In this document: positions 5,923 to 9,547 of the stretch, piece by piece
Layout of the letters: every line of letters starts with the position of its first letter
Position numbering within the stretch: position 1 is the first letter of the stretch
DNA from: a bacterium
Lineage (GTDB): Bacteria > UBA9089 > CG2-30-40-21 > SBAY01
Assembly: GCA_040757115.1 (NCBI GenBank)
Contig: JBFLYA010000141.1
Span: 1-9,680 of the forward strand
DNA length: 9,680 nucleotides
Direction: 5' to 3'
Position numbers and translations under genes: made by a program
Notes under the pieces: model-generated
The model's input: only the letters and a program-made list of their open reading frames with translations
What the model was told of the DNA's origin: nothing
Databases searched by the model: none

Positions 5923-5935
5923 AGTTCCTTTTAAG

Positions 5936-5985
5936 AATTTCACGCAAAGGACGCAAAGAAGCGCAAAAGGACGCAAAAAAGGTTG
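5936..5985 (+). repeat. Left arm of CGCAAAG-type inverted repeat
   Basis: The arm begins with TTTCACGCAAAGG and has four CGCAAA units spaced by purines. Its reverse complement recurs at 6189-6243, and together the arms enclose the GxxExxY remnant. The match is imperfect but spans about 50 bases. Confidence 0.75.
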
Positions 5986-5994
5986 AACGAACTT

Positions 5995-6181
5995 ATGACA
6001 GAGAATGAGATATCATATAAAATCATCGGTGTTGCTTTAGAAATCCATAAAAAATTAGGACCAGGTTTTGTTAGAGTCAGTATATGAGAATGTTTTAGCC
6101 TATGACCTTATAAAAATAGGAATGAATGTTAAAACACAAGTTCCAATACCTTTACTTTACGAAGAAGTCAAGGAATTGTAA
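5995..6181 (+). pseudogene. GxxExxY family (PDDEXK_3-type) protein, N-terminal remnant, frameshifted and truncated
   Basis: From the ATG at 5995 the protein reads MTENEISYKIIGVALEIHKK and continues LGPG, a good match to the start of GxxExxY proteins, but it hits TGA at 6085-6087. Removing one T from the TTTT run at 6066-6069 restores GLLESVYE, which is the family-defining G-x-x-E-x-x-Y motif, followed by NVLAYDLIKIGMNVK, TQVPIPLLYEEVK and a TAA at 6179-6181. About 60 of the usual roughly 125 residues remain. The second half, which carries the D...ExK residues of the nuclease-like fold, is missing. The family's function is not established; PD-(D/E)XK relationship is family knowledge. No convincing ribosome binding site was seen. 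The remnant is certainly inactive. Confidence 0.85.
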
Positions 6182-6188
6182 ATAAGTT

Positions 6189-6243
6189 GTGAACCTTTGC
6201 GATTCTTTGCGTGAGGTCTTTGCGATTCTTTGCGTGAAATCTT
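6189..6243 (-). repeat. Right arm of CGCAAAG-type inverted repeat
   Basis: Read on the minus strand it begins AAGATTTCACGCAAAG and contains four CGCAAAG units, matching the arm at 5936-5985. It also contains an internal direct duplication of about 25 bases (TTTGCGATTCTTTGCGTGA occurs twice on the plus strand). Confidence 0.75.
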
Positions 6244-6290
6244 TAACAACAAGGAATTATCTGTGATTTCCTGCAAAGATTCGTAGAAAA

Positions 6291-6734: not shown

Positions 6735-6937
6735 AAAAAATTGCCACCTGTGCGGTTAAATGTAAAATGGATAATGTAAAATGAGAAATGTAAAATGAAA
6801 ATGTATAACTGAAAGGTAATGAGTCTTGCGAAGTACTAAAATTTCCCATTTTTCATTTCCTATTTTACATTTTACATTTATTTTTCCTTTGCGTCTCTGC
6901 GATGAATTAGTCTAATCGCACAGGTGGAAAAATTGTA
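6735..6937. repeat. Nested inverted-repeat element (outer CCACCTGTGCG arms, inner ATGTAAAATG arms)
   Basis: The outer arms at 6736-6758 and 6913-6934 share CCACCTGTGCG(G/A)TTA in opposite orientation, with A/T-rich ends. The inner arms at about 6758-6803 and 6841-6885 are built from ATGTAAAATG and GAAATG units and are also inverted. A single CGCAAAGG-type half-site (6886-6905 on the minus strand) lies between the inner and outer right arms. This fills the gap between the pseudopilin-like and PorV-like genes. A small non-autonomous element inserted in an older hairpin is the simplest reading; the outer arms alone could once have been a transcription terminator stem. Confidence 0.7.
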
Positions 6938-7959: not shown

Positions 7960-8124
7960 ATGTCCATAAAGGTAGATGAGTTTATAAAAAAGAAGCTTAA
8001 AAGACTTAAAGGTGTAGGGAAAGAAATATTTCCCATCCTTGTTACCCATATGATATCAGAACCAGATGCAGAGGAATATGTAAAGGAAAAGGGCATTACC
8101 CTTTATTATTCCTATGATTTTTAG
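7960..8124 (+). CDS. Short 54-residue ORF, probably the C-terminal remnant of a larger protein
   Basis: The ATG at 7960 directly follows an in-frame TAA (7957-7959), and a purine-rich AAGAAAGGA at 7942-7950 could serve as ribosome binding site. The protein starts MSIKVDEFIKKKLKRLKGVG, continues KEIFPILVTHMISEPDAEEY and ends KGITLYYSYDF before the TAG. The FPILVTH...EYxKEKGIxLYYSYDF pattern reminds me of the last strand and helix of restriction-endonuclease-like DUF proteins (coiled-coil plus PD-(D/E)XK type) found in uncultivated bacteria and cyanobacteria; this is recollection only, without a named family. The intact reading frame and natural-looking composition argue for a former or current gene. 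A repeat immediately upstream may have replaced the missing N-terminal part. Confidence 0.5.
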   Translation: MSIKVDEFIKKKLKRLKGVGKEIFPILVTHMISEPDAEEYVKEKGITLYYSYDF

Positions 8125-8164
8125 TAACTATTCAGCCACTGATTCACACGGATTAGCACGGATA

Positions 8165-8226
8165 AATACAGAGGGCAGAGGACAGAGGGCAGAAGGCAGA
8201 GGATAGAAGACAGAGGTCAGAAGCAA
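8165..8226 (+). repeat. Purine-rich AGACAGAGG/AGAGGGCAGA repeat inside the MITE-like element
   Basis: Imperfect tandem units such as ACAGAGGGCAGAGG and AGAAGACAGAGGTCAGA relate this tract to 7884-7949. The pattern is low complexity and non-coding. Confidence 0.6.
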
Positions 8227-8229
8227 GTT

Positions 8230-8260
8230 GTCCCCTGCTGGCGGGGGATTAAGGGGGTGG
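8230..8260. repeat. GC-rich hairpin (CCCC-GGGG type) repeat
   Basis: TCCCCTGCTGGCGGGGGA can fold as a short stem and is followed by TTAAGGGGGTGG. It is far richer in G/C than its surroundings. I recognise it as similar to a widespread intergenic phrase in uncultivated genomes. It has no T-run and is not a normal terminator. Confidence 0.5.
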
Positions 8261-8461
8261 AAGTTAGGAGGAGAAAAGCCCTTCAGCCTGATTACAAACA
8301 CGGAAAACGGACACGGATTACGAATTTTCAGTGTTTCATCTGTGTCCATCTGTGGCTGAATAATTGCCTTTTCCTATGCATCATAATTTATCCAGAGCCT
8401 TCTTTGAAGAGAAAAAGAGAGAATAACTGGCTATACTTTTAATTTCGTGCAAAAGTTTTAG

Positions 8462-9145: not shown

Positions 9146-9187
9146 GTGTAAGAAAAGGAGATAAGGAGATTAAGGAGATAAGGGGAT
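9143..9187 (+). repeat. GTGTAAGAAAAGGAGATAAGG repeat, copy 1
   Basis: The copy starts TTGGTGTAAGAAAAGGAGAT and continues with GGAGATTAAGGAGATAAGG units. It is closely related to 9425-9475 on the same strand and to 9501-9547 on the opposite strand. It directly abuts the end of the minus-strand GxxExxY fragment. Confidence 0.7.
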
Positions 9188-9188
9188 A

Positions 9189-9377
9189 TTATTCTAATTC
9201 CACTCTTCTAAAATCTGCCTTTTCTTTAGCAAAGTTTACAAGAATAGCCACCTTTACACCTGTAGCTTTTAAATAAGAGCGAACCTGAGCATAATGAGCT
9301 TTGCTTAATTCCTCCACCGTTTTTAGTTCTACTATTACCTTGCTTTCTACAAGAATATCCAATCTGTGTTTCCCAAT
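9189..9377 (-). pseudogene. GxxExxY family (PDDEXK_3-type) protein, C-terminal half only
   Basis: The minus strand reads EIGKHRLDILVESKVIVELK, then TVEELSKAHYAQVRSYLKAT, then GVKVAILVNFAKEKADFRRV and ELE before a TAA at 9191-9189. This matches the second half of GxxExxY proteins: RxD-LLVE-x-K-VIVE-LK carries the D...E-x-K residues of a PD-(D/E)XK-like active site, followed by the usual YLKATGxKVxxLVNF strand-helix. Upstream on the minus strand an in-frame stop (TAG, near 9402-9404) cuts it off and no start codon or first half is present. The fragment itself has no frameshift, so its loss of the 5' half may be recent. The plus-strand remnant at 5995-6181 holds the complementary first half of a family member. 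Confidence 0.82.
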
Positions 9378-9433
9378 TTCTGGTGGTGTCTGAAGATAAC
9401 GCTAATAGTGAAATCTATGCAGATTTGGTGTAA
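9377..9433 (+). pseudogene. PQQ-repeat-like coding fragment
   Basis: One plus-strand frame reads FLVVSEDNANSEIYADLV and stops at TAA. The pattern vvvSEDn..sEIYA-DL is close to a PQQ propeller strand (vyvgSeDgkiYAlDl). It probably belonged to the same broken propeller gene that begins at 8560; the GxxExxY half and repeat copy 1 lie between. The stretch is short and the call tentative. Confidence 0.4.
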
Positions 9434-9547
9434 AAAAGGGGATAAGGAGATAAAGGGAGATATGGAGATTATTCATAGTCCTTTCCAAAATTTTAGAATG
9501 AATTTATCTCCTTATCTCCATAATCCCCATATCTCCTTTTCTTACAC
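9425..9547. mobile_element. Hairpin-forming MITE-like element made of two inverted GGAGATAAGG repeats
   Basis: The left arm (9425-9475) begins GGTGTAAAAAAGGGGATAAG, and the right arm (9501-9547), read on the minus strand, begins GTGTAAGAAAAGGAGATATG; both run into GATAAGGAGATAAA-type units. The arms are about 47-50 bases with a 25-base centre around CCAAAATTTTAG. No obvious target-site duplication was found. It lies between the broken PQQ gene and the next gene. Confidence 0.65.

Follow-up and report, generated by a model that had tools for sequence, protein, structure and literature searches.

The window, a stretch of 9,680 nucleotides, is contig C141 of a bacterial genome of 4.3 Mb in 462 contigs (G000, hereafter the window genome). 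Between 5925 and 6256, two inverted arms of short tandem repeats enclose what is left of a GxxExxY gene, and further repeat-bounded units lie downstream:

5925-5981, forward strand: left arm, consisting of TTCCTTTTAAGAATTTCA and then four CGCAAA(G/A) units at 5943-5949, 5952-5958, 5962-5968 and 5972-5978
5995-6191, forward strand: GxxExxY (PF13366) remnant, with about 58 N-terminal residues, a one-base frame change and then GIVNKL*, as defined by alignment with relatives from the same order
6187-6256, reverse strand: right arm, with four CTTTGCG units at 6195-6201, 6206-6212, 6218-6224 and 6229-6235, and TGAAATCTTTAAC at its outer side
6736-6935, no strand: gene-less MITE-like unit with outer inverted ends CCACCTGTGCGRTTA and inner tandem inverted arms GTAAAATG
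8124-8367, no strand: gene-less unit with IS66-type ends GTAACTATTCAGCCACTGATT...CTGTGGCTGAATAATTGC and inner arms of the CACGGAT type
9146-9547, reverse strand: second repeat-armed unit, in which inverted arms of the GTGTAAGAAAAGGAGATAAGG type (arm score 72) enclose the C-terminal half of a GxxExxY gene at 9201-9377

Local alignment gives 5925-6256 as the extent of the whole inverted repeat; the original prediction, 5936-6243, had the position right but fell slightly short in length. Within this repeat, 5931-5949 pairs with 6228-6246 (19 nt, 89%), 5951-5967 with 6219-6235 (17 nt, 94%) and 5951-5976 with 6187-6212 (26 nt, 81%), and the tandem heptamers of both arms stand close to the gene. The arm score of 44 exceeds the maximum of 32 reached among 1000 dinucleotide shuffles; pairing and score thus bear out the proposal that inverted arms of the CGCAAAG type surround the remnant. 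About 1.1% of random positions in the window genome score as high, because this genome holds very many such units, and this figure is what speaks for a chance inverted repeat beside a decaying gene in a genome rich in repeats. Yet the focal score was never attained in the shuffles, both arms and the remnant are conserved in relatives from the same order, together with target duplications, and the association of arms with GxxExxY genes is strong over many phyla. We consider a chance origin of the arms ruled out by the shuffles and by the duplications beside close relatives, and give it almost no probability.

The remnant starts with MTENEISYKIIGVALEIHKKLGPGF at 5995, changes frame by one base into ESVYENVLAYDLIKIGMNVKTQVPIPLLYEEVK and reaches GIVNKL* in the first frame again. 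Joined across the frame change, it matches the PF13366 profile with an E-value of 1.3e-9 (38.8 bits, cut-off 22). The catalytic middle, which carries the D, ExK and QxxxY motifs, is deleted from the focal copy, and the gene is dead because this region is missing. It had been described as family-recognisable but dead, which is correct, although 'internally deleted' is more exact. As the gene belongs to PF13366 and the site is intergenic, with no rRNA found by Rfam in the window, the unit does not qualify as a 23S rRNA intervening sequence.

Units of this kind abound in the window genome. The one at 6736-6935 has more than ten near-identical copies in the window genome and in genome G001, with no match at the same site in G001. 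There are 65 matches to PF13366, of which about 20 are near full length and many are fragments of one end. An arm score of at least 36 was found at 40 of the 62 testable GxxExxY matches, against 5.4% of random places, these genome-wide statistics resting on individual stretches, many of which had been picked for GxxExxY. The repeat unit varies with the protein subfamily, the types found in the window genome being CGCAGAG, CGCAAAG, CACGAATT, GGGGATAAGG, GGAGAAATGG and GGGAAAA. Two diverged GxxExxY copies within the genome have a dN/dS of about 0.08, which indicates that the protein was under purifying selection while the copies multiplied. In four copies (L016-L019), the N-terminus has been replaced by repeat-array sequence of the GGTAATTGG type, giving the fusion ...NHQLPESNSVRYLFNTTLGPGF. 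A further unit (L070, C16 3778-3993) has AAATTCC tandem arms within TATAGCASTTATTARTC ends, which look like those of a TA-duplicating (IS630-like) MITE, and is absent at that place in G001.

Other genomes show what can occupy the focal site. In G001, the flanks are 96-97% identical and another short repeat fills the gap; in G003, from the same family, a PF05635 gene between GACTAAA tandem arms is found there (L062:2779-3280, G003:C382). The expected empty site was therefore seen only in part: the focal GxxExxY unit is absent from both genomes, but the sites are not clean, each holding a different repeat unit. The focal arms have eleven matches in G005, a genome from the same order. Several of these are units of about 200 bp that contain both focal-type arms as well as an MTENEISYKI-like start joined to the same C-terminal tail. 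In five such relatives the ends are of the type GTAACTACTCA...TGAGTAGTTAC, an IS66 type, and three of the five have exact 8-bp target duplications (CTTTATTT, AATTGAAG and TATGTTCT). Relatives of the focal unit are thereby shown to have moved by transposition, within IS66-type ends and generating 8-bp target duplications, and the focal unit belongs to a family with a history of transposition. At the focal copy, neither an intact end of the GTAACYRTTCA type nor an 8-bp duplication is visible. The layout of a cassette or MITE, as suggested originally, is strongly supported by arrays that enclose GxxExxY genes or gene-less units and by these close relatives with their duplications. We conclude that the unit at 5925-6256 is probably a MITE-like copy, inactive and with an internal deletion, of a nuclease cassette bounded by repeat arms, on which the nuclease would act.

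The IS66-type ends bring in a different candidate for the moving enzyme. The GTAACYRTTCASS end occurs 655 times in the window genome, compared to once in a reversed-pattern control, and a broken IS66 transposase gene sits between such ends. Among 224 IS66-ended units in the G000 and G001 stretches, 58 have an exact duplication of 8 bp, where 0.003 were expected, and none has one of 9 bp or more. Similarity to GxxExxY was found in 46 of the 224, in some over the full length, including one full-length gene with a duplication. For one gene-less unit, comparison of G000 with G001 revealed a clean empty site, the duplication being AATCTCTT; the two genomes often have different units at the same intergenic sites. 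Other types of end are also present, for example TATAGCASTTATTA with a probable TA duplication. Many G000 contigs start or end near GTAACCGTTCAGGCTA (e.g. C4:37-52, C6:108-123, C10:107-122), as if broken at a longer repeated element with such ends, perhaps intact IS66 copies.

Since the movement demonstrated in the window genome's lineage accompanies IS66-type ends and 8-bp duplications, an IS66 transposase could be the mover. The units would then be IS66-type MITEs and nothing more: a transposase of this family would recognise the GTAACYRTTCA-type outer ends, and GxxExxY and the tandem arms would be passive cargo. The number of ends relative to their control, the exact duplications, the flanked transposase gene and the presence of such ends on the multi-copy G005 relatives all agree with this. 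In many phyla, however, the arms around GxxExxY genes start with TTYACC, and the loci read there lack such an outer end; nor is there a clear one at the focal copy, and passive carriage leaves the existence, the mirror symmetry and the subfamily-tracking of the inner arms unexplained. We therefore judge the IS66 transposase to be an unlikely sole explanation, though one to be taken seriously.

The distribution of the arms over many phyla was examined in a sample of 80 loci, picked by similarity to the window genome's proteins, so that the CRCRRAG type is over-represented. An arm score of at least 40 was obtained at 39 of the 78 testable GxxExxY genes; among 1144 control positions within these loci, 2 reached it. 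The GxxExxY loci come from no fewer than ten bacterial phyla and from some archaea; outside the window genome's genus, about one quarter to one half of the genes fall short of the threshold used for strong arms. A typical arm starts with TTYACC and contains three heptamers (CRCRRAG) separated by spacers of 1-3 nt. The median unit length is about 500 bp, and an intact cassette, of about 450-500 bp, consists of one GxxExxY gene between two inverted arms. CACGAAT arms were also found with relatives of the window genome's CACGAATT-type protein in one archaeon and in Cloacimonadota.

The two arms of an element resemble each other in a specific way. Spacer lengths agree in 78% of cases, as opposed to 30% if elements are mispaired, and the identity of the heptamer units is 0.90, compared to 0.77 for mispaired arms; the bases of the spacers agree only to 0.59. 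Between different genomes, arm k-mers track protein distance (Mantel rho -0.436, p 0.001, 95 elements), a covariation to which common descent of arms and gene may also give rise.

In a scan of 650 kb, made up of regions selected around GxxExxY genes, arrays of three or more units formed 54 inward-facing pairs, compared to 0 in the reversed-sequence control. GxxExxY genes are enclosed by 25 of these pairs, and a further 28 are short with no gene inside. The remaining pair surrounds a different small gene (L122:685-1217), in which a PD...ExK-like stretch can be made out by eye and for which Pfam gave no match; it may represent another nuclease family carried by cassettes of this kind. Apart from this gene, no arms were seen around unrelated genes among the 54 pairs, in line with the expectation that they belong to GxxExxY. 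Two loci, L116 (85-217, 655-787) and L112 (88-158, 581-652), have complete, near-identical gene-less hairpin units on both sides of a GxxExxY gene, an arrangement like that of a composite transposon.

Cassettes also occur within tight operons. An example is fabD-[cassette]-fabG in Sphingomonas parapaucimobilis, the fabD-fabG gap being 11 bp in a relative. The same gap contains a lone array, GAGACGCCAAGACGACAAGACGGAG, in L310 (G284), perhaps the scar of a former cassette. For cassettes without IS ends, neither a target duplication nor a clear insertion footprint was found, the longest word shared between 18-nt flanks being only slightly longer than after permutation (3.90 vs 3.65). Spread by plasmids or phages was considered and rejected, as a search with one query protein retrieved GxxExxY from no more than 8 of 72,556 plasmid records and from 0 phage records. 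Taken together, these comparisons show that the arms and the gene belong together as one unit in many phyla, and that copies of this unit multiply, shorten internally and lose the gene. The family of repeat-armed cassettes is widespread and apparently undescribed; an open-access literature search for GxxExxY, the repeats or repeat-armed S23/nuclease units returned nothing relevant.

The same architecture is found with a second protein family, PF05635, a four-helix bundle. The window genome has 26 matches, mostly between inverted short-tandem arms of many different units, and 14 of 18 other genomes also encode members of the family. An arm score of at least 30 was found at 21 of 29 tested PF05635 genes and at 1 of 296 controls. 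PF05635 genes outside rRNA that are boxed by inverted short-tandem arms of varied units were seen at L166-L191 and L338-L367. Proteins of the S23/PF05635 type are encoded by 23S rRNA intervening sequences, units of about 430 bp in which they lie between inverted repeats that are cut by RNase III, and the origin and mobility of these sequences are a long-standing open question (PMC4990558).

This parallel raises the possibility that the arms act in RNA, pairing in the transcript, where cleavage by RNase III would render the insertion harmless, and that they are kept as an RNA stem. The layout shared with PF05635 genes, the RNase III-cut inverted repeats of known intervening sequences (PMC4990558) and the location of cassettes within operons such as fabD-fabG are compatible with it. 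If the arms were kept for pairing in RNA, G-U-compatible mismatches should be in excess, but they are about as frequent as those of the A-C type, both for GxxExxY (120 vs 116) and for PF05635 (29 vs 26), and the heptamers are much better conserved than the spacers. The lack of a G-U bias argues for a function in DNA, and together with the well-kept heptamers and their equal spacing it favours arrays of DNA-binding sites. The RNA-stem explanation is thus disfavoured, and we consider it improbable.

Intact GxxExxY relatives match TIGR04256 with an E-value of 2e-41, are about 120-130 residues long and conserve the D, ExK and QxxxY motifs. A PDB sequence search for the family gave no match. The structure predicted for one intact relative (L138, pLDDT 95.7) has the Cas4 protein SSO0001 as its best structural match (4ic1, Z-score 9.9 over 99 residues); others, such as the Holliday junction resolvase Hjc, follow at Z-scores around 7 and were not counted as functional evidence. 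Intact GxxExxY proteins are thus predicted to be minimal Cas4/RecB-like PD-(D/E)XK nucleases.

We infer that this nuclease is the protein that binds the arrays. It would recognise the heptamers on DNA as a symmetric oligomer, which would explain why the array sequence tracks the protein subfamily, and may process either the ends of the cassette or a cruciform into which these ends fold. Deletion copies such as the focal unit could have been moved in trans by the nuclease of intact copies or, alternatively, by an IS66-type transposase, once a cassette had acquired such ends. In its most general form, which we put forward tentatively and hold to be possible rather than probable, this would make GxxExxY cassettes a new class of minimal mobile elements, present in some archaea as well as in many bacterial phyla. 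A single Cas4/RecB-like nuclease would recognise the inverted arrays of three heptamers at the ends and bring about the copying of its own element, with no need for a recombinase of the DDE, HUH, serine or tyrosine type. S23/PF05635 elements, 23S rRNA intervening sequences among them, would form a sister class built in the same way.

GxxExxY proteins are widespread and their family, PF13366 (PDDEXK_3), has so far had no assigned function. If a mobile cassette carries these genes as its cargo, or is driven by them, many 'hypothetical' genes would have one explanation, and many of the scattered short repeats CACGGAG, CGCAGAG and CGCAAAG in genomes would gain the same one. The layout shared with PF05635 genes also offers a handle on where 23S rRNA intervening sequences originate. 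The focal unit is a decayed member of this widespread cassette family, which we place conservatively among MITE/IS-like elements.

Several known systems share some of these properties. With the nucleases of the Cas4/RecB/lambda-exonuclease group, GxxExxY has the predicted fold and the D, ExK and QxxxY motifs in common; unlike them, it resides in a cassette without a CRISPR or recombination partner gene, and its matches to Cas4 profiles are weak. Each end of a Tn7-like element carries an array of short, repeated binding sites, and the system includes a PD-(D/E)XK enzyme, TnsA. The cassettes resemble these ends in layout only, being far smaller and having neither a DDE transposase nor another partner gene. 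Like the cassettes, 23S rRNA intervening sequences consist of one small gene between inverted repeats, and PF05635 genes outside rRNA share the tandem-repeat arms, but the encoded protein is unrelated (a four-helix bundle, not a nuclease), the repeat units are more varied and the classical representatives are located in rRNA. IS66-family MITEs are likewise short and multi-copy, with inverted ends, 8-bp target duplications and a lost or deleted gene, and in the window genome the same ends are found around an IS66 transposase gene. Cassettes read outside the window genome's lineage lack such ends, however, the focal copy has no intact one, and what sets the cassettes apart from these MITEs is a second symmetric layer inside the ends, formed by the tandem heptamer arms and the nuclease gene.
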